Virus record (IMG/VR): IMGVR_UViG_3300025087_000189
Location: 1-39,176 of that record
From: a virus
Direction: 5' to 3' (one strand)
Length of the DNA stretch: 39,176 bases
Part shown: piece after piece, positions 1,527 to 39,176 of the stretch
Layout of the letters: each line of letters opens with the position of its first letter
Numbering within the stretch: position 1 is the stretch's first letter
The notes under the pieces: generated by a model
Database searches by the model: none
The model's input: only the letters and a program-made list of their open reading frames with translations
Told to the model about the DNA's origin: nothing
Made by a program: the position numbers and the translations under genes

Positions 1527-1608
1527 CGAGCCCCCAGATACCCAGGGCGCACGCCAGAAGAAGCGCGATGAGCACGAGAGTTTCCGCCAGGTCCTGAAGA
1601 GTCGTCAT
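1513..1608 (-). CDS. 31-residue single-pass membrane micro-protein
   Basis: ATG 1608 is preceded by GGAG at a 7-nt spacing and the frame ends at TAG 1513. The product begins MTTLQ and is almost entirely one transmembrane helix (LVLIALLLACALGIWGLV). It overlaps the hydrolase gene downstream. The start region, including the MTTL(Q) codons, is a duplicate of that of the 175-residue gene at 1650-2177. By position it could be a holin, antiholin or spanin-type accessory, but nothing in the sequence proves this. Confidence 0.6.
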   Translation of the reverse strand: MTTLQDLAETLVLIALLLACALGIWGLVARH

Positions 1609-1646
1609 CGTTGGGCTCCGATCAGCATGGCCGCCAGCAAGCCGAG
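1595..1646. repeat. 52-bp imperfect direct repeat, copy B
   Basis: Aligns without gaps to 2164-2215 with 43 of 52 bases identical. Conserved blocks are the start region of an MTTLQ gene (tgaagagtcgtcatcg), the ribosome-site region and the end of an upstream frame reading ...LLAxMLIG. Here that upstream frame is only a relic behind the stop at 1650. It is evidence of an old tandem duplication of a gene-gene boundary. Confidence 0.8.
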
Positions 1647-1649
1647 CGG

Positions 1650-2177
1650 TTATGGCAGCACCCCCACGCAGGAGTAGCGCATGGCAATGTTGTAGTGGAG
1701 CTGAGCGAAGTCATAGTCCTGAGGTCCCAGCCGGGCCATGTACTCGGCAACAGCGCCCAACTGATTCAGCCGCTGCCAACATTCAGTCCCCTCTTGGGGA
1801 ATCAGATCCCAGGGAAAGTCAGTATAGGGAGCGTGTCCCCCCAGATCTCCCAGGATGGCATCCGCTTGGCTGGTGACCTCGTATCTGCATTCTTCCACGG
1901 CCAGCAGACTATCCTTCGGACAGGTATGCCATTGCTCGATGGCATTGTGCAGCCGGGCAGCCAGGGCGGTGGTCCAACTGTCGGGCAACCGCTCCGCAGT
2001 AGGCAGGGCTTCACAGTAATCTGGTCCATCGGCAATCACATACTGCCAGCCTTCGCCACATTCTTTAGGAACCATAGCCTTCAAGTTCAAGCCAATGGTT
2101 TGGGCGATCAAGAACAGGGACACGATCAGAGCAATGCCGAAGAAGCCGATAGCGATCTTTTGTTGAAGAGTCGTCAT
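1650..2177 (-). CDS. Signal-anchored protein with six-cysteine exported domain
   Basis: A 175-residue protein starting MTTLQQK, with GGAGG 6 nt before ATG 2177. One transmembrane helix spans about residues 8-28. The rest is likely outside the inner membrane and carries six cysteines (KEC, DYC, HTC, EEC, TEC, YSC), suggesting disulfides. Nothing homologous is recognised. It sits among micro membrane proteins and just upstream of a wall hydrolase, so a role in lysis or in altering the host envelope is the simplest inference. A longer in-frame reading upstream lacks a ribosome site and crosses the previous gene. Confidence 0.65.
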   Translation of the reverse strand: MTTLQQKIAIGFFGIALIVSLFLIAQTIGLNLKAMVPKECGEGWQYVIADGPDYCEALPTAERLPDSWTTALAARLHNAIEQWHTCPKDSLLAVEECRYEVTSQADAILGDLGGHAPYTDFPWDLIPQEGTECWQRLNQLGAVAEYMARLGPQDYDFAQLHYNIAMRYSCVGVLP

Positions 2178-2215
2178 CGCTAACCTCCGATCAGCATCCT
2201 CGCCAGCAAGGCGAG
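2164..2215. repeat. 52-bp imperfect direct repeat, copy A
   Basis: Partner of 1595-1646. In this copy the upstream frame is intact: it is the C-terminus (LLARMLIGG) of the 52-residue membrane protein at 2180-2338, followed directly by the 175-residue gene. Confidence 0.8.
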
Positions 2216-4584: not shown

Positions 4585-4595
4585 TTCTTCCTCTC

Positions 4596-4670
4596 CGTTC
4601 AGCCGATGAGACAGTGAGGGAGCAGAGCGGCTAGGGGGATGCCGACCCTGAGGGCCTCATCGGCTGAACG
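4596..4670. repeat. 15-bp perfect inverted repeat with 45-nt spacer
   Basis: cgttcagccgatgag (4596-4610) and its exact complement (4656-4670). With a 2x2 internal mismatch the pairing extends to 4589-4593 and 4673-4677 and so takes in the ribosome sites of both flanking genes (GIY-YIG to the left, a 30-residue + gene to the right). It may be an operator, a 5'-leader hairpin on both transcripts, or a replication or recombination site. Confidence 0.75.
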
Positions 4671-4682
4671 CGGAGGACGAAG

Positions 4683-6264: not shown

Positions 6265-6830
6265 AGACCGAAGACCTTTTCCCCCGCAAGTGGCTCTCAG
6301 GAGAGGACCTCCCACACGACACTACCGCCACGATCGACCGCGTCGTGATGGAGGAGATGCACAACCCGGCCACACGTAAGAAGGAGCGCAAGCCCGTGGC
6401 CTACTTCGTCTCGAAGCGCAAGGCCCTGATCCTCAACCGGACCAACTGGATGACACTCGCCGGGCTCTTTGGCGACGAGTCGGATGAGTGGTCTGGCCGG
6501 CGGATCGTGCTCGGCGCGGACGAGGTCGACTCGCCCCAGGGCCGCATGCGAGCCCCGCGGATCCGAGCGGTCCACCCCGAAACCCTGGCGACCCCGCCGG
6601 CTGAGATCCCCGAGGAAGAGGACGAGGAGGAAGAGATCCTGACACCCGTGGCCCCGCCGCCGCCGATGGCCAACGGCGATGGCAAGAAAAAGACTCTCGT
6701 GGTTACGGAGTTCTGGGCAGCGATCCGCGACAATCACAAGACCCGCGAGGAAGGGGCGCGCATCCTTGACCACTGCAAGGGTGACTTCGAAGCCGCACTC
6801 AAACAGATCCACGAGCCGACGCCGATCTGA
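6261..6830 (+). CDS. OB-fold-like DNA-binding protein with C-terminal helical domain
   Basis: A 189-residue protein. Residues 1-105 match a widespread phage family by pattern ('WLSGEDLPHDTTATIDRVVMEEM', 'VAYFVSKRKALILNRTNWMTLAGLFGDESDEWSGRRIVLG', then a closing iRA..P strand). Its members look like OB-fold proteins and often lie near recombination genes. An acidic linker (EEEDEEEEI) and a Pro run lead to a ~45-residue helical end ('VTEFWAAIRDNHKTREEGARILDHCKGDFEAAL') like a UBA-type domain. A role in binding single-stranded DNA is inferred. AAGGAG precedes ATG 6261, and the stop shares a base with the next start. Confidence 0.6.
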   Translation: MKTEDLFPRKWLSGEDLPHDTTATIDRVVMEEMHNPATRKKERKPVAYFVSKRKALILNRTNWMTLAGLFGDESDEWSGRRIVLGADEVDSPQGRMRAPRIRAVHPETLATPPAEIPEEEDEEEEILTPVAPPPPMANGDGKKKTLVVTEFWAAIRDNHKTREEGARILDHCKGDFEAALKQIHEPTPI

Positions 6831-6994
6831 TGGACGTGCCGCTCACGCCGGTCGAACGCACCGCCGCCTCCGAAGCGCTGCGCCGGAAGGACAAGCGGAT
6901 CGCCGACCTGGAGCGTAAGGCCCTGACGTGCCCGAGCTGCGGGTGCGATTCAAGAATGCCGCCTATGCGGCTTCGATCCTACGAGGGACGATGA
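6830..6994 (+). CDS. Truncated zinc-finger protein split by an HNH gene
   Basis: A 54-residue frame starting in a TGATG overlap with the previous gene. A charged helix (ERTAASEALRRKDKRIADLERKA) leads into 'LTCPSCGC', half of a zinc knuckle, then an Arg-rich tail with no clear sense. The stop overlaps the HNH start as ATGA. The CPSCG here (6929-6943) nearly repeats the CPMCG near the end of the HNH protein (7510-7524). Joining at that motif gives a plausible intact 75-residue zinc-finger protein with an SSB-like tip, so this looks like the 5' remnant of a gene invaded by the nuclease. Confidence 0.55.
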   Translation: MDVPLTPVERTAASEALRRKDKRIADLERKALTCPSCGCDSRMPPMRLRSYEGR

Positions 6995-7638
6995 AGATCG
7001 ACGACCTTCCACGCTGGCTGGCGATGAGGATTAGTCTCAAGCACGACTGTTGGGAGTGGATGGGCTTCAGGAATCGACAGGGATATGGCCACTGCCAGTA
7101 TCGGGGACGATCCCATCTTGTCCATCGACTGGTCTATACGATGACCAAGGGCGCAATTCCCCAGGGACTGACCCTTGATCATCTGTGTCGCAATCCGTCG
7201 TGCGTCAACCCCGAACACCTGGAGCCGGTGTCGCAGAGAGAGAACACACTGAGGGGCGTCGTCGGGCAAAAGATGATGGCGACACATTGCTCGCACGGCC
7301 ACGAATACACGGAAGAGAACTCATACTACAGGAAGCGCGGCGGGCGAGAATGTCGCAAGTGCCATACCACAATTCAATCGGCAAGACACCATCGCCTGCA
7401 CCCCGAGGCCGGCCACATCAATGTTCTCTTGTCTATACGCGGACGTGAGATCGGTATCAAGGCCCGGCATGTGAGGTGGCACGTCAACCGTGGCCTTGTC
7501 GGGCCGGATTGTCCGATGTGCGGTGCGGATCCCGGCGCGAAGCCGGCCGACGAGCCGCTGGAGCACCGTTTCGTGGGCCCAGGCGAGGTGGACGACAACA
7601 GTGGCGGCGGGCACGAAACCGATCCGGTGCCGTTCTAG
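6991..7638 (+). CDS. HNH homing endonuclease with RWH/CPxC module and SSB-like C-terminal tail
   Basis: A 215-residue protein. Residues about 20-90 are an HNH_3 nuclease ('CWEWMGFRNRQGYG', 'VHRLVY', 'LDHLCRNPSCVNPEHLEPV'). A second zinc pair follows ('HCSHGHEY ... CRKCHT'). Residues 157-177 ('RHVRWHVNRGL...CPMC') match a module in the GIY-YIG protein at 3919-4584. After this comes a 37-residue tail rich in Gly/Asp ending 'HETDPVPF', unlike nuclease tails but like the acidic Pro-Phe tip by which SSB proteins recruit partners. I infer fusion of the mobile nuclease to the 3' end of the gene it entered. Confidence 0.88.
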   Translation: MKIDDLPRWLAMRISLKHDCWEWMGFRNRQGYGHCQYRGRSHLVHRLVYTMTKGAIPQGLTLDHLCRNPSCVNPEHLEPVSQRENTLRGVVGQKMMATHCSHGHEYTEENSYYRKRGGRECRKCHTTIQSARHHRLHPEAGHINVLLSIRGREIGIKARHVRWHVNRGLVGPDCPMCGADPGAKPADEPLEHRFVGPGEVDDNSGGGHETDPVPF

Positions 7639-7639
7639 G

Positions 7640-7687
7640 ATGGCGCAACTAGCCGCCCTCGCCGCAGGGGAGGTGAAGCATGATTGA
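7640..7687 (+). CDS. 15-codon leader-like frame in the repeated linker
   Basis: ATG 7640 directly follows the HNH stop (TAGG-ATG), reads MAQLAALAAGEVKHD and ends 8 nt inside the next gene. The peptide equals the C-terminus of the neighbouring paralog family, so it is either a coupling peptide or a leftover 3' end of a family member removed by recombination or HNH entry. Confidence 0.35.
   Translation: MAQLAALAAGEVKHD
7652..7683 (+). repeat. Repeated gene-junction linker, site 1
   Basis: Core GCCGCAGGGGAGGTGAAGC followed by ATGA. It supplies a strong ribosome site and the start of the 103-residue gene. Related copies are at 7956-7979, 8380-8407, 8461-8481 (+) and 36362-36390 (-). Confidence 0.75.
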
Positions 7688-7991
7688 CGCCCAGACGGTG
7701 CTGGCACGATGGCGGGACTGGGTTCAGGCGTTCCGAGAGGCTCGCCCTGAGAGACTTGGCACCTCCGAGAGGATGTGCATTCACTTGTGGGATGCCCTGG
7801 CCGCCTCGCAGGTGCGGGTGGAGGCCATGATGCTCCACAAACTTGCCCCGTCCCTTTCGGGGCCTCCGGAGTGCCTGGACTTTGCTGGGAGGGTGACGCC
7901 CTATGGTGCAGCATACGCTGAGGGCTATCGCGCCCGCCAAGCCGAGATAGAGGCCGCCGCCCTCTCCGCAGGGGAGGTTCCCGATGACTGA
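7680..7991 (+). CDS. Small protein of the DA(K/Q)TVL paralog family, member 1
   Basis: A 103-residue protein starting MIDAQTVLARWRDW, with GGGGAGGTG before ATG 7680. It shares three blocks with the proteins at 7984-8481 and 35678-36181: N-terminal DAxTVL, a central LAAS..RVEA(L/M) helix, and an Ala-rich end (AALSAGEV). The part between the blocks is unrelated. Its function is unknown. The pattern suggests modular shuffling around conserved joints. Confidence 0.65.
   Translation: MIDAQTVLARWRDWVQAFREARPERLGTSERMCIHLWDALAASQVRVEAMMLHKLAPSLSGPPECLDFAGRVTPYGAAYAEGYRARQAEIEAAALSAGEVPDD
7956..7979 (+). repeat. Repeated gene-junction linker, site 2
   Basis: Reads gccgccctctccgcagggga then ggt, close to the core of the other copies. 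It ends one paralog and forms the ribosome site of the next (7984). Confidence 0.65.
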
Positions 7992-8481
7992 CAAGCCCGA
8001 CGCCAAGACAGTGCTGGAGCGACTACGAGAACTGGAAGAGGAAGCCAGTCCCGCGCCTTGGACTGCGCAGGTGGACGAGGACCACAACCAAGAAGGTTCT
8101 GTGTGGTGTGGCGCATACGAGGACGAACGGCCGGCAGTGTGTGGTAGCCATGACGACGAATGGCCGATGGATGCGGGAGACGCGGAACTGATAGCCGCCC
8201 TGCGCAACGACGCCATTCCCGCCCTCGCCGCCTCGGAGCAGACAGTCGCTACGCTCCAGGCGCGGGTGGAGGCGCTGGAGAAGCGACGCGGATTGGTGCC
8301 TCTGTGGGTTGGACGGCGATACCATCGCGAGCTTGGACACACTCGCCCATTCCGGGAGTGCATGCACGAGGTTTGTCAGGCCGCCCTCGCCGCAGGGGAG
8401 GTGAAGCCCGCGGATCGTGTACACGACGAGTGGGGGCAGAACGTGATGGACGTGCCGCCAGAGGAGGTGAAGCATGACTGA
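7984..8481 (+). CDS. DA(K/Q)TVL paralog family, member 2
   Basis: A 165-residue acidic protein starting MTDKPDAKTVLERLRELEEEA. The first 11 residues are identical to those of the protein at 35678-36181, and 33 of 34 bases around the two starts match although the genes lie on opposite strands. The middle has a helix 'LAASEQTVATLQARVEALEKR'. Near the end the linker repeat occurs inside the gene ('AALAAGEVKP') and again at its stop, so the last ~35 residues look like an added segment. A stretch at about residues 23-70 (PAPWTAQVDEDHNQEGSVW..., DAELIAAL) resembles a small ead/Ea22-like phage protein domain. Function is unknown. Confidence 0.65.
   Translation: MTDKPDAKTVLERLRELEEEASPAPWTAQVDEDHNQEGSVWCGAYEDERPAVCGSHDDEWPMDAGDAELIAALRNDAIPALAASEQTVATLQARVEALEKRRGLVPLWVGRRYHRELGHTRPFRECMHEVCQAALAAGEVKPADRVHDEWGQNVMDVPPEEVKHD
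8380..8407 (+). repeat. Repeated gene-junction linker, site 3 (inside a gene)
   Basis: The full core is present but followed by ccgcgg in place of ATGA, so here it is translated through. This suggests a former gene end that was joined to extra sequence. Confidence 0.65.
8461..8481 (+). repeat. Repeated gene-junction linker, site 4
   Basis: gaggaggtgaagcatgactg, then a: the end of member 2 and the ribosome site/ATG of the 84-residue gene. The 5' part of the core differs from the other copies. Confidence 0.65.
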
Positions 8482-8728
8482 CAACCCGCACGCTCCTCAT
8501 CCAAGGTGGCTCTGGGTTTCGTCGTGTTCCCTGTGCGGATGGCGCAGTCCTCGTTTCGACAGCGAGAACATTGCTCGGGGCCTGGCATTGCTTCATGCGG
8601 TAATAAGGCATCCTTATGGACACACGACCATTGCCGCAGTGGACCGTCGGACCGCACTCGTGAATGATGCGATGGGATTACCGGGAGGGGCAGGGGAGGC
8701 CCAAGAGACGCCCCAGGACGGGGGCTAG
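8474..8728 (+). CDS. Small protein with a possible zinc pair, unknown
   Basis: An 84-residue protein with a strong GAGGAGGTG ribosome site before ATG 8474. 'WVSSCSLCGWRSPRF' offers a CxxC pair and 'LLHAVIRHPYGH' offers histidines. A Gly/Glu-rich tail follows. The layout resembles the small C/H proteins common in phages of GC-rich hosts. It overlaps the previous gene by 8 nt. Confidence 0.55.
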   Translation: MTDNPHAPHPRWLWVSSCSLCGWRSPRFDSENIARGLALLHAVIRHPYGHTTIAAVDRRTALVNDAMGLPGGAGEAQETPQDGG

Positions 8729-8729
8729 G

Positions 8730-9041
8730 ATGGCCGTCCAATCCGTGGACGCCCCCCAAGGCGGCTTGCGGACGTTGATCAGGTCCTACGGGTCGATCCG
8801 CAAGGCCGCCGAAGCCCTGGGCGTTTCTATCGGAGTGGCCGCCCGTGCGGCCAAGGGGCAGGAACCGAGGCGGGCTGACCTTCGCGCCGCGCTGGGTCTT
8901 CCGCCTGCCATCGGGCCCGATGTCCTTGTCATGGGCCAGCCCGTGACCTGTCGCTGCGGGAGGGTGTTCGTGGGCAAATGGGGGACGCGCAGGCGGCTGT
9001 GTCCGATCTGTCGCCCGAGCCCCCCGGCTCAGCTGGGCTGA
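8730..9041 (+). CDS. HTH plus zinc-knuckle protein, last gene of the rightward operon
   Basis: A 103-residue protein starting at ATG 8730 (TAGG-ATG after the previous stop). Residues about 14-55 form a helix-turn-helix ('LIRSYGSIRKAAEALGVSIGVAARAAKG'). The C-terminus has 'CRCGRVF ... RRLCPIC', a four-Cys zinc knuckle. It probably binds DNA and may act as a regulator. Transcription ends just after it. Confidence 0.65.
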   Translation: MAVQSVDAPQGGLRTLIRSYGSIRKAAEALGVSIGVAARAAKGQEPRRADLRAALGLPPAIGPDVLVMGQPVTCRCGRVFVGKWGTRRRLCPICRPSPPAQLG

Positions 9042-9079
9042 CGCGAACCGTGGTAGGCTAAGCGTGATCGCTGCGGGAT

Positions 9080-9103
9080 CGCTTCCCCTGGCCAGGGGGA
9101 GCG
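9080..9103 (+). terminator. Near-perfect 24-nt palindrome after the early operon
   Basis: Reads cgcttcccctgg then ccagggggagcg. The two halves pair with one G-T wobble. It is the first of three hairpins between the convergent operons and probably part of the stop region. Confidence 0.5.
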
Positions 9104-9111
9104 GAGGCGGG

Positions 9112-9132
9112 GAGCTCCTCACAAGGGAGCTC
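9112..9132 (+). terminator. Hairpin followed by pyrimidine-rich tract
   Basis: gagctcc (9112-9118) pairs with ggagctc (9126-9132) over a 7-nt loop and is followed by tctccttcatttct. It is the most terminator-like of the set for + transcripts. Confidence 0.55.
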
Positions 9133-9150
9133 TCCTTCATTTCTGAGAGA

Positions 9151-9179
9151 ATAGCGGGGGGCCGTCGACCCCCCGCTAT
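9151..9179. terminator. Strong bidirectional hairpin between convergent operons
   Basis: atagcgggggg (9151-9161), 7-nt loop, ccccccgctat (9169-9179): an 11-bp perfect stem two bases from the stop of the holin-like gene. It lies where the early + operon meets the late - operon and can act on both. Confidence 0.7.
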
Positions 9180-9180
9180 G

Positions 9181-9468
9181 TCATGACTTGGGCAGCAGCG
9201 TGTAGAAGAGCTGGCTCACCGTGAACGCAATGCCCACCGCGAATGCGGCAGTGTCCCAGGTCAGGGGCAGAACACAGGCAAGACCCGCGATTGCCACGAC
9301 ACAAGAGGCCAGCAGGGACAGGATGGAAAGGACGCCGCTGACGAAGGCCGAGAGGAATTTCACCTGATCCCCGTGCCAATCCAGGCGCGCCTTGAGGAAG
9401 TTCACCGCCGGCACTCCGATGAGGCCAGCGATCACAGCTGCTACAGCTGCGAAGACTGCCGGTTCCAT
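9181..9468 (-). CDS. Holin-like membrane protein
   Basis: A 95-residue protein with about three hydrophobic segments (residues 3-22, 40-66, 73-90) and few charges, ending LLPKS. AAGGGAG precedes ATG 9468. It follows an endolysin candidate and a coiled-coil membrane protein and is the last gene of the late operon. This is the standard position and shape for a holin that opens the inner membrane. Confidence 0.65.
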   Translation of the reverse strand: MEPAVFAAVAAVIAGLIGVPAVNFLKARLDWHGDQVKFLSAFVSGVLSILSLLASCVVAIAGLACVLPLTWDTAAFAVGIAFTVSQLFYTLLPKS

Positions 9469-22480: not shown

Positions 22481-22512
22481 GGGGGCATCCTCTCCCGGGA
22501 GAGGATGCCCCC
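22481..22512. terminator. Intergenic 32-nt perfect palindrome in the capsid block (2 of 3)
   Basis: gggggcatcctctccc (22481-22496) is followed at once by its complement (22497-22512), so 16 bp can pair apart from the turn. It lies between the stop at 22526 and the start at 22461. Confidence 0.75.
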
Positions 22513-35483: not shown

Positions 35484-35688
35484 TCCCCTTGATCTTCCCC
35501 TCCGCGACGACGCACAGGTGAACCTCGCCGCCCACCTGGATCCCCACGGCCTTCGGATACTCCCCCCGCGACCCGCCCCGCTGGACCATCAGCCAGGCAT
35601 AGGCGTGAGTAACACGCATCGATGGCCAGGTGCGCACCAGCTTGAGAACTGCCCGCCGAAGCTCGCGCCTCGTTATCTCACGCGCCAT
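35476..35688 (-). CDS. Small basic protein, unknown
   Basis: A 70-residue protein with AGGAGG 6 nt before ATG 35688. 'MAREITRRELRRAVLKLVRTWPSMRVTHAYAWLMVQRGG' then a beta part ('AVGIQVGGEVHLCVVAEGKI'). No domain is recognised. It overlaps the genes on both sides. The longer upstream frame is a shadow. Confidence 0.5.
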   Translation of the reverse strand: MAREITRRELRRAVLKLVRTWPSMRVTHAYAWLMVQRGGSRGEYPKAVGIQVGGEVHLCVVAEGKIKGNG

Positions 35689-36181
35689 CGCCAGCCTCCT
35701 CCTTCGCCCATCCAGTCCCCGCAAGGCAGTCGTGTTCCAGACTCGAATCATCTCCAAGGCCCTGCCGGGGATCGCGCTTCGCATCCTGTAGAGGACTTGC
35801 AGCAAGCGTCGCATCCAAAGGTGCGTTGGGCGCGGCGGCGAGGGCGGCTACGGGGCAAGTACCAGTATGCCCAATCTCGTGGCTCTGCCCACAGAAATAG
35901 CAGAAGCCGTACTTCACGGGCAGGGTTCCGTCCCAACCGAACTGAAATTTGCGGTCGGGCAACACTTGCTCTAGCGCCTCCACCCGCGCCTCCGAGGCGG
36001 CCAATTGCCGCGAAGCCTGTTGCATGAACGGGATGGGGCACATTCCATCGTGCAAATCGAGGCGACCGCAATGTGCGCATGGTATCCCGACCGGAGCAAG
36101 AACTTGAATCAGTTCGTCCATCGTCATCCCGCCCGGCCATTGTGGGTTTAGCACCGTCTTGGCGTCGGGCTTGTCAGTCAT
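35678..36181 (-). CDS. DA(K/Q)TVL paralog family, member 3, with zinc knuckles
   Basis: A 167-residue protein. It starts MTDKPDAKTVL, identical to member 2 at 7984 on the other strand. It keeps the 'LAASEARVEALEQ' helix and an 'AALAAAP' joint, but carries two zinc sites absent there: 'CAHCGRLDLHDGMC' and 'CYFCGQSHEIGHTGTC'. The family thus combines a fixed head with variable bodies. It starts in an ATGA overlap. Function is unknown. Confidence 0.65.
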   Translation of the reverse strand: MTDKPDAKTVLNPQWPGGMTMDELIQVLAPVGIPCAHCGRLDLHDGMCPIPFMQQASRQLAASEARVEALEQVLPDRKFQFGWDGTLPVKYGFCYFCGQSHEIGHTGTCPVAALAAAPNAPLDATLAASPLQDAKRDPRQGLGDDSSLEHDCLAGTGWAKEEAGDGA

Positions 36182-36369
36182 CGCATGTGCTCCCGATACG
36201 CCTGGCAGCCATCGCAGTCTTCATCATGGTAGCAGGCATTCTCTGAGACCATGACGGGGACATCATGGACGTTGCATGAAGGGCATTTCCCTATTGTCCA
36301 CTTGTGCTTCTTTCCGCACGCGTTACAAGGCTCTAGCCAAACAGGCGAATGTACGACTTGCTCAGTCAT
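36178..36369 (-). CDS. Small multi-cysteine zinc protein
   Basis: A 63-residue protein. 'CNACGKKHKWTIGKCPSC' is a zinc ribbon and 'ACYHDEDCDGCQAYREH' adds further Cys/His. Its start lies in the linker repeat (36362-36390), which supplies GGGGAGGTG before ATG 36369. The stop overlaps the next gene as ATGA. Confidence 0.6.
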   Translation of the reverse strand: MTEQVVHSPVWLEPCNACGKKHKWTIGKCPSCNVHDVPVMVSENACYHDEDCDGCQAYREHMR

Positions 36370-36390
36370 GCTTCACCTCCCCTGCGGCGC
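36362..36390 (-). repeat. Repeated gene-junction linker, site 5 (opposite strand)
   Basis: On the minus strand it carries the same core (GCCGCAGGGGAGGTGAAGC then ATGACTGA) as the early operon on the + strand. Here the upstream gene passes through it in a different reading frame (...TAPQGR stop), so DNA and not peptide is conserved. Confidence 0.75.
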
Positions 36391-37182
36391 AGTCTGCGCC
36401 AATATGGGGAACCGCTGGATACGCAGTTCTGCCGGCCACGCCTCCGGGTGCGCCCGTTTGTCGGGATGGCCACCCAACTGCTTTACGAACACGGGGACCC
36501 CAGCATCCTCGCATTCGCCGACCAAACTGGCCGCCCATCTGAGGTCCATCGGGCGACAGCCGGGCTGGCTTTCGCCGCCGATGATGACCCAATGGATCCC
36601 GAAGGCCACGGCTTCGTAGCCTCTACCCCATTCCTTCGCCATCGTTCCGAAGAGGCCGAGATCGATCGGGCCCAACAGTGGTTCACAGCTTAGGAATGTC
36701 TGCGTGGCTCTGCTGCTCAGGAGGAGAGGGATCCGCTCGTCCGCACGTTCTTGGTCCTCGACCGAGACGCCGAGCATCACGTTGTCGGCCTCGAGGATCG
36801 CGAGGGGCATAGTGCTCAATCTCTCCGCTCGCTTCGTCAACAGCAACCACGTCAGATTGGGCGTGCAAAGGATCAGCTCCCACAGGCGTTCGCGCTGCGA
36901 CTCCAGCTCCGGCCTGTCCTCCAGGAAGTCGGACATGCTGCCACAAAATACGCGCTTGCTGATTCCAGCCTCTTGCGCCGCCAGGCTCCACAGTACGGGC
37001 TCCCGCCAATGAGCGTCTCCGAAATGACGACGCGGCGCAGTCGGCCCCCAGATGCTAAGTGGCGCCCACCGCTGTGCCAATCTCTCCGCATAGCAATGCT
37101 GGCATCCGGGGGAAACTTTGGTGCAGCCCCACCAGGGATTGAAGGTATGGTCGCACCACGCAATGCCAGTCTTTGCGCCCAT
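36373..37182 (-). CDS. Gp37/Gp68 family protein (DUF5131, radical-SAM-like cysteines)
   Basis: A 269-residue protein starting 'MGAKTGIAWCDHTFNPWWGCTKVSPGCQHCYAERL', the signature of DUF5131, with Cys10 and the Cys20-x6-Cys27-x2-Cys30 set thought to hold an iron-sulfur cluster. Later motifs also fit ('PNLTWLLLTKRAERL', 'VMLGVSVEDQERADERIPLLL', 'FLSCEPLLGPIDLG', 'WVIIGGESQPGCRPMDLRWA', 'PVFVKQLGG'). The family is widespread in phages; its reaction is not known. ATG 37182 is in a TGATG overlap with an HNH-fold gene. Confidence 0.92.
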   Translation of the reverse strand: MGAKTGIAWCDHTFNPWWGCTKVSPGCQHCYAERLAQRWAPLSIWGPTAPRRHFGDAHWREPVLWSLAAQEAGISKRVFCGSMSDFLEDRPELESQRERLWELILCTPNLTWLLLTKRAERLSTMPLAILEADNVMLGVSVEDQERADERIPLLLSSRATQTFLSCEPLLGPIDLGLFGTMAKEWGRGYEAVAFGIHWVIIGGESQPGCRPMDLRWAASLVGECEDAGVPVFVKQLGGHPDKRAHPEAWPAELRIQRFPILAQTAPQGR

Positions 37183-37502
37183 CAGCCCGCCTTCGGGTTC
37201 CGCACGTCCACCCTCCGCGCTCTCTCGGCAAGGCTCTCATAGATCGCGTCCCCCAACTGGTCGCGCACCCAGACATGGAACGTCAGGGGCCACTCGTGGG
37301 CCCAACGGTGACAGAGGAAGCAAAGCGTCAGACAGTTTTGCGGATCCCAGCGGGTCGCCTTGATCCTTCTCGAAAAGACATGGGCCGCGTGCATCGTCCA
37401 GCCCTGTTCCTTCGACCTTCCGCACCGCCGGCACCGCCAACCATCGCGCTCCTTGATTTCTCTGGCAAAGGCCTCGTCCATTTTTGTGGTGGCTATCTTC
37501 AT
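37182..37502 (-). CDS. HNH-fold nuclease-like protein
   Basis: A 106-residue protein: 'RDGWRCRRCGRSKEQGWTMHAAHVFSRRIKATRWDPQNCLTLCFLCHRWAHEWPLTFHVWV'. It has two Cys pairs for zinc, an 'AAHVFSR' His and an Asn in 'PQNCLTL', a pattern shared by phage recombination-type HNH proteins. Unlike the homing enzymes it has no extra DNA-binding domain, so a role in DNA processing is more likely than mobility. ATG 37502 overlaps a tiny upstream frame as ATGA. Confidence 0.75.
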   Translation of the reverse strand: MKIATTKMDEAFAREIKERDGWRCRRCGRSKEQGWTMHAAHVFSRRIKATRWDPQNCLTLCFLCHRWAHEWPLTFHVWVRDQLGDAIYESLAERARRVDVRNPKAG

Positions 37503-37534
37503 GGCCACTCAGCGTCGCAGACGTGGATCTTCAT
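37499..37534 (-). CDS. 11-codon coupling frame
   Basis: MKIHVCDAEWP, chained by ATGA overlaps to the 14-codon frame before it and the HNH-fold gene after it. Probably it carries ribosomes to the next start. A free peptide role is unproven. Confidence 0.25.
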   Translation of the reverse strand: MKIHVCDAEWP

Positions 37535-38470: not shown

Positions 38471-39176
38471 GCATGGCCTCCATTTCCGCCTTCGCCTGGC
38501 GGATCGCCGCAAAGGACTTCGGCTCGGGCGCCGGCCTGTCCCGCCTCACGACTCCGATCTGCTCCTGCAAGTCCCAGATGCGTGGCGGTCGCTTCCGATA
38601 CCCCCCAGCCCACCACCACTGCTTGAACAGCACTACCTCCTCCGGCGTGTATGGGGGGGAGGCTTTCATCAGCGCCGACCTGACTTTGCCGACTGACTTC
38701 CCGGCCGTTGCCGCGTCGACTTGGCATACTTCCACAATGGCGTCGAAGAGCAGATCGGGGGGACGGGGGGCGGACGGCGCTTTTAGCCGTCGATGTCTTT
38801 TCTCCTTCGCAGTCTCCTGCTCCTTCTCTTTCTCCTTCTCGGATGGCTCCGGCGGATACGGTATAGAGACGCCATCCGTCGCTGAGGCCCCTACATCTGG
38901 CGGCGTTGTGTCAGAGGCCGCGTAACGCCTCTTGAGGTCGCAATCGGGGATCGCGGCGAGTTCTTTGGCGATCCGGATCTGCACCTTCTCGCTGGCCGTC
39001 TCGTTGTACTTGCGGAGGTTCGGCACCCAGACATAGGGGGCCTCGTAGAACGCCTTGCCTGCCAGAGAGAAACGATGCAACGCCAGAGTGATCGCATCCG
39101 TCCTCAGCCCAGTCTCGAATGCCATCGTCTTCAACGACAGCTCGTACAACCCGCAGAGGGCGGTGCGCTCATTGGA
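38460..39176 (-). CDS. Phage replication initiator (main part; 5' end continues at the left edge)
   Basis: The body and C-terminus of the 275-residue initiator begun at 245 across the join. Here the frame is open to the window end. After the winged-helix part come 'YVWVPNLRKYNETASEKVQIRIAKELAAI', a charged linker (EPSEKEKEKEQETAKEKRHRR), and a C-terminal domain ('DLLFDAIVEVCQVDAATAGKSVGKVRSALMKASPPYTPEEVVLFKQWWWAGGYRKRPPRIWDLQEQI', read in parts). It likely binds the origin, perhaps within the linker region, and passes the host helicase in through the loader encoded next. Confidence 0.75.
   Translation of the reverse strand, partial: SNERTALCGLYELSLKTMAFETGLRTDAITLALHRFSLAGKAFYEAPYVWVPNLRKYNETASEKVQIRIAKELAAIPDCDLKRRYAASDTTPPDVGASATDGVSIPYPPEPSEKEKEKEQETAKEKRHRRLKAPSAPRPPDLLFDAIVEVCQVDAATAGKSVGKVRSALMKASPPYTPEEVVLFKQWWWAGGYRKRPPRIWDLQEQIGVVRRDRPAPEPKSFAAIRQAKAEMEAMHGD
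39051..39176. repeat. 126-bp direct terminal repeat, right copy
   Basis: Identical to 9-134. The upstream base context (…gtagaa) keeps the replication gene open, unlike the left copy, so the right end has the true sequence. Confidence 0.9.

Follow-up and report, generated by a model that had tools for sequence, protein, structure and literature searches.

The window, that is, the whole stretch of DNA analysed, comprises positions 1 to 39,176 (39,176 nt, one strand) of the IMG/VR virus record IMGVR_UViG_3300025087_000189. Because it carries an exact direct terminal repeat of 126 nt (9-134 = 39051-39176), it is probably a complete genome. Two runs of small genes, slot 1 (plus strand) and slot 2 (minus strand), contain otherwise unrelated genes that have three short DNA modules in common, one at the gene start (M1), one in the middle (M2) and one at the end (M3, here called the linker). 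The coordinates are collected in Table 1. At E <= 1e-3 the window has no repeats other than these three modules, a second gene junction at 1595/2164, the terminal repeat and one hairpin. An earlier, sequence-only reading had described the linker as a swap joint for small genes; it missed the two other modules in the same genes and the second junction.

Table 1. Positions and strands of the genes, relics, modules and linker copies in the window.
Feature	Positions	Strand	Description
Junction, downstream copy	1595..1646	-	gene-end half is a relic
Gene between junction copies	1650..2177	-	missing in L006 and L017
Junction, upstream copy	2164..2215	-	second gene-end/gene-start junction (ALLARMLIGG, stop / MTTLQ)
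HNH endonuclease gene	6928..7638	+	interrupts a small gene whose L017 counterpart is intact
Relic	7641..7687	+	ATGGC start joined to the final codons of a gene now lost (MAQLAALAAGEVKHD, stop)
Linker copy 1 (M3)	7652..7688	+	coding tail, ribosome site and ATGATTGA
Gene A	7680..7991	+	103 aa; M1 (DAQTVL), M2 (ALAASQVRVEA), M3 tail (ALSAGEVPDD, stop); no family match
M2 in gene A	7793..7825	+	middle module, ALAASQVRVEA
Linker copy 2	7956..7992	+	half copy: tail, TTCCCG instead of GTGAAGC, then ATGACTGA
M1	7982..8019	+	start module, MTDKPDAKTVLE
Gene B	7984..8481	+	165 aa; M1, phrog_1667-like middle, M2, M3 read through, second gene end (VPPEEVKHD, stop)
M2 in gene B	8257..8280	+	QARVEALE
Linker copy 3	8380..8407	+	within gene B, same protein frame (AALAAGEVK), no following start
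Linker copy 4	8459..8482	+	half copy: only ribosome site and start
Gene C	8474..8728	+	84 aa; no family match
HTH and zinc-type gene	8730..9041	+	closes slot 1; end conserved in L017
Gene K	35678..36181	-	167 aa; M1, Zn-type middle, M2, alternative tail
Alternative tail	35785..35850	-	AALAAAPNAPxDATxAAS; common to L006 and L017; first 16 nt as in the start of M3
M2 in gene K	35969..36003	-
M1 in gene K	36150..36183	-
Zinc-ribbon gene	36178..36369	-	63 aa; L017 relative elsewhere, without linker
Linker copy 5	36362..36389	-	truncated end of DUF5131 gene joined to zinc-ribbon gene
DUF5131 gene	36373..37182	-	ends within linker; shorter than L006 relative
HNH protein	37182..37508	-	best match NinG/Rap (phrog_5034)

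Comparison was possible with three related IMG/VR contigs, L006 (13 kb), L017 (23 kb) and L012/L020-L021 (32 kb), all of them partial and roughly 60-90% identical to the window, and no pair of parent and recombinant was seen among them. With contigs L008, L010, L011 and L013-L016 the window has no more than a short string in common. The terminase is distant from those of named phages (best 35%), a conserved early protein has no relatives in bacterial genomes, a search of named phages with window 6800-9200 returned HNH genes only, and the gene B protein has no match in named phages. Two inverted repeats lie elsewhere in the window. A perfect 32-nt palindrome (22481-22512; hairpin of 14 base pairs, z -3.5) separates two open frames on the minus strand in the structural region and is possibly a terminator or regulatory site; the other (4585-4681) has arms of 36 nt that are 81% complementary, with a spacing of 25 nt.

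The linker combines a coding tail reading LAALAAGE with a ribosome site and start (GGAGGTGAAGCATGACTGA), and each of the two pieces is also found without the other. Tail and ribosome site overlap, because GAGGTG of the ribosome site reads E-V in the frame of the tail, and the ATGACTGA that follows serves both as the start of the next gene and as the stop of the previous one. The frame of the upstream protein is the same in all copies except that at 36366; at the copies it reads LAALAAGEVKHD (stop), AALSAGEVPDD (stop), AALAAGEVKPAD (continuing) and VPPEEVKHD (stop). The 23-nt GCCGCAGGGGAGGTGAAGCATGA is present exactly at 7661-7683 (+) and at 36366-36388 (-); a third site, 8389-8407, lies within a gene and has the first 19 bases (GCCGCAGGGGAGGTGAAGC) but no start. 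With the coding tail included, 7652-7679 and 8380-8407 are identical (28/28), and 27 of 28 bases agree between 7660-7687 and 36362-36389 (minus strand). No match to the linker string was obtained in 100 shuffles of the sequence. The earlier count of five full or near-full linkers holds for 7652, 8380 and 36362-36390; the other two sites have half copies only, the one at 7956 (GGGGAGGTtcccgATGACTGAC) retaining the tail and having lost GTGAAGC, the one at 8461 (cagaGGAGGTGAAGCATGACTGAC) retaining ribosome site and start and having lost the tail. The pieces are likewise found singly in relatives, with the tail but no ribosome site in L020 (LAALAAGEPQQ, 1543-1565; 23/23 bases as in 7650-7672) and a weaker ribosome site and start without tail in L006 at 8165.

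At 7956 and 8461 the linker does end one gene and start the next, with the joint supplying the coupled stop through an 8-nt stop/start overlap (ATGAxTGA). This description fails at 7652, where the "gene" that is ended is a 15-codon relic and the HNH gene already stops at 7638. The copy at 8380 is indeed internal to a gene (gene B), and that at 36362 is indeed crossed in a different frame by the upstream gene, whose DUF5131 protein takes its stop from the TGA inside GGAGGTGA. This gene diverges from its L006 relative right after ACTGCG, where the linker begins, the overlap being about 2 nt. Three full or near-full sites and one half site precede starts among the 36 starts checked, and the linker starts have the three longest Shine-Dalgarno matches of all, with complementarity to the 16S 3' end over 8, 8 and 9 nt (median 4). 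Thus, the strong ribosome site that had been ascribed to the linker is upheld. RNA folding revealed no common structure among linker copies (z-scores of -0.27, 1.58 and -0.44 for three copies), and only the 36366 copy folds better than shuffles.

The linker is one of three repeated elements in these genes. M1 has 34 nt that are 97% identical between 7982 (+) and 36150-36183 (minus strand), and M2 has the sequence ALAASQARVEALE at 7793, 8257 and 36003. Both are present in relatives L006 and L020 too; as a protein-level pattern, M2 was found in L006 only. The similarity of M1 begins at CGATGA (7982, 36183) and that of M3 ends at ATGAxTGA, such that the similarity blocks break off at the start/stop overlap. 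The protein regions between the modules have no mutual similarity by BLAST, and one middle part of gene K matches a distinct open frame at about 4.0 kb in L006. A second tail, AAPNAPxDATxAASPRQGLE, closes slot 2 in L006 and L017 as well as in the window. Where the residue is unchanged, the codon is identical in 66/79, 90/107 and 49/52 cases for the three modules; codon usage would give 33, 38 and 19, and orthologous genes of the same phages have a fraction of 0.48-0.87. The high identity is partly a selection effect. Since the modules were picked for DNA likeness, silent-site identity is a weak test of selection. M1 and M2 are strongly conserved at silent sites despite carrying no ribosome site, and the linker is therefore not alone in its conservation at the DNA level. 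The proposal that selection acts on linker DNA as a special joint is not supported, on this account and also because the linker splits into halves, is wholly missing from L017 and is matched in behavior by the unrelated 1595/2164 junction.

The content of both slots differs among relatives. Slot 1, which lies between a small gene starting MNAS/MDVP and the HTH gene, holds the relic and genes A, B and C in the window, two other genes in L012/L020 and none in L017. Block 7641-8728 is accordingly missing in one relative and replaced in another, and CTAGGATGGC stands at both of its ends but is single in L017. The relic, which holds linker copy 1 and overlaps the start of gene A, is also missing from L017. 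Slot 2 contains the zinc-ribbon gene and gene K in the window, two other genes in L017, and an HNH gene with three others in L006. The zinc-ribbon gene follows the linker in slot 2 of the window, whereas in L017 it lies beside slot 1 after a plain TGATGA overlap. Flanking genes that vary while the joint, or half of it, stays are thus seen both between slots and between relatives, in line with what had been proposed. The slots are oppositely oriented in L017 as in the window; on this ground, and for want of an integrase in the window and of a folded joint, both site-specific inversion and an integron-type system were dropped.

The junction at 1595/2164 extends over 52 nt, and its two copies are 85% identical; L006 and L017 each have a single copy. 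Because its sequence is wholly different from that of the linker, the behavior described here belongs to shared gene boundaries generally. A shared edge on a gene that is absent or replaced in a relative, the mark of boundary mosaicism, is found at 1595/2164 and in slots 1 and 2.

HNH_3 endonuclease genes interrupt small genes, at different sites, both in window slot 1 (7117) and in L006 slot 2 (7357). In the window the insertion (6947-7509) falls in the middle of a zinc-type small gene, leaving halves at 6830-6946 and 7510-7638, and the end of that gene is now fused to the HNH frame. In L006 (7207-7644) an HNH of the same group is found at the very start of a slot-2 small gene, and L017 has no HNH there.

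A search for a recombinase or annealing protein had been suggested as a check; neither RecT, ERF family proteins, a tyrosine integrase nor any dedicated recombinase was detected in the window. There is no Phage_integrase match in the window, and integrases are present in two relatives only. The short HNH protein at 37182-37508 is possibly a recombination enzyme, although its NinG/Rap match may reflect general HNH similarity only.

Exact 20-mers of the linker were found in none of about 85,000 bacterial and archaeal genomes, and the linker is thus not a general host motif. In IMG/VR beyond the window, the 20-base core occurs only in L006 and in one unrelated phage (three contigs: L004, L005 and L007), in which the identical 21 nt (CGCAGGGGAGGTGAAGCATGA) close an integrase-like gene and are read in a third frame; this copy can be a coincidence on an ideal ribosome site. 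A protein-level search of IMG/VR for AAGEVKHD followed by a stop gave no match and so yielded no silent variants of the tail. A similar joint (LLAAGEV and CTCGCCGCAGGGGAGGTATCCGATGACC) lies right before a terminase-like gene in L009 (6786-6815), a phage that is otherwise almost unlike the window.

The most plausible reading of the linker is a gene boundary that is shared within a mosaic of small phage genes and also provides a useful ribosome site. It seems fairly likely that the slots are explained by recombination between short sequences shared at gene boundaries, which is a known process. Repeats, half copies, altered gene content and relics are directly seen in the sequences. We infer that recombination at these stretches caused the changes, as follows. 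The end of one gene and the start of the next would form the linker in two variable small-gene slots. Related phages with different slot genes would meet in one cell, and recombination could occur at short shared stretches, whether the linker joint, M1, M2 or another boundary such as 1595/2164. Whole small genes or gene parts would thereby be swapped or inserted, and an insertion would double the boundary and leave the former gene end behind as a relic (7641-7687, 1595-1646). General recombination machinery, of the cell or the phage, presumably would perform the exchange. Good ribosome sites at gene ends would be kept because the next gene needs one. Some joins, such as that at 36388, have almost no common sequence and look illegitimate, which counts against boundary recombination.

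The swap-joint proposal stands insofar as genes change beside the joints, but they do not do so owing to one special linker. A dedicated swap joint is possible. In a version that we consider unlikely, tail, ribosome site and stop/start overlap would be kept as a standard joint in this phage group, together with standard start and middle modules, such that homologous recombination could exchange whole small genes or parts of them, each landing in frame with a ribosome site. A purely translational role, in which the linker is a start-associated element kept for its ribosome site and coupled stop/start while shuffling is incidental, is similarly improbable. It would account for the exceptional Shine-Dalgarno matches (8, 8 and 9 nt, the longest of 36), for a ribosome-site half without tail at 8461 and, more weakly, at L006 8165, and for the use of the 36366 copy with an upstream gene in another frame. 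However, the 8380 copy and the L020 tail (1543-1565) are conserved though no start follows, only 3-4 starts of the genome and none in L017 carry the linker, M1 and M2 are conserved without any ribosome site, and no common RNA fold exists, 36366 alone beating shuffles.

Somewhat less probable still is plain paralogy, with genes A, B, K and their relatives as old duplicates whose modules are selected protein remnants, so that boundary recombination is not needed. The start, middle and end modules do keep this order in genes A, B and K, in L006 7641-7994 and in L020 1266-1592, yet the parts between them lack BLAST similarity, and the silent codons of the modules (66/79, 90/107, 49/52) are more conserved than those of most orthologues (0.48-0.87). 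Moreover, after an identical stretch of 16 nt the tail is either AAGEVKHD or AAPNAPxDAT, and linker and start module occur on genes without the rest (36178, L006 7987). If overlapping G+C-rich genes had converged by chance on an ideal ribosome site, this could explain why the unrelated L004, L005 and L007 share 21 nt in another frame and why L009 has a similar joint. This explanation is extremely unlikely, because exact 28-nt copies also take in coding-tail sequence ahead of the ribosome site, and neither the 100 shuffles nor the exact 20-mer search of about 85,000 genomes produced a match.

The reading as a shared gene boundary has a close precedent in genes 67/68 of Island3, a cluster I mycobacteriophage, where a gene end of 18 residues (about 50 bp) is repeated, the gene is present or absent between relatives, and recombination was inferred from the repeated end (PMC3029335). 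The 1595/2164 junction (52 nt) and the relic at 7641 have the same form. Unlike the Island3 case, the boundary described here appears in two slots on opposite strands, has a strong ribosome site, and is accompanied by intragenic start and middle modules. The start-associated sequences (SAS) of cluster K mycobacteriophages (PMC3203893) and cluster EF Microbacterium phages (PMC7302621) are 13-bp repeats found just upstream of starts, to which they are tied, in numerous copies per genome. The linker resembles them in its location at the ribosome-site position before starts of genes from different families. In contrast to SAS, it has 4-5 copies of up to 28 nt that mostly code for the end of the upstream protein; its core (GGGGAGGTGAAGC) differs from the 13-bp cluster K consensus (GGGATAGGAGCCC), and its copies at 8380 and L020:1543-1565 lack a start. 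As in integron gene cassettes, small genes in a row change while the joint remains. However, the window has no integron-type tyrosine integrase and no common folded attC-like structure, only 36366 folding well.

These slots are a fresh example of the known shuffling of small genes in phages. They provide a well-resolved natural case of the gain and loss of small accessory genes, in which relics and doubled boundaries make exchange readable step by step, at the borders of genes as well as within them. Should the joint prove a favored exchange point, boundary homology versus random joining would be directly testable within one phage group.
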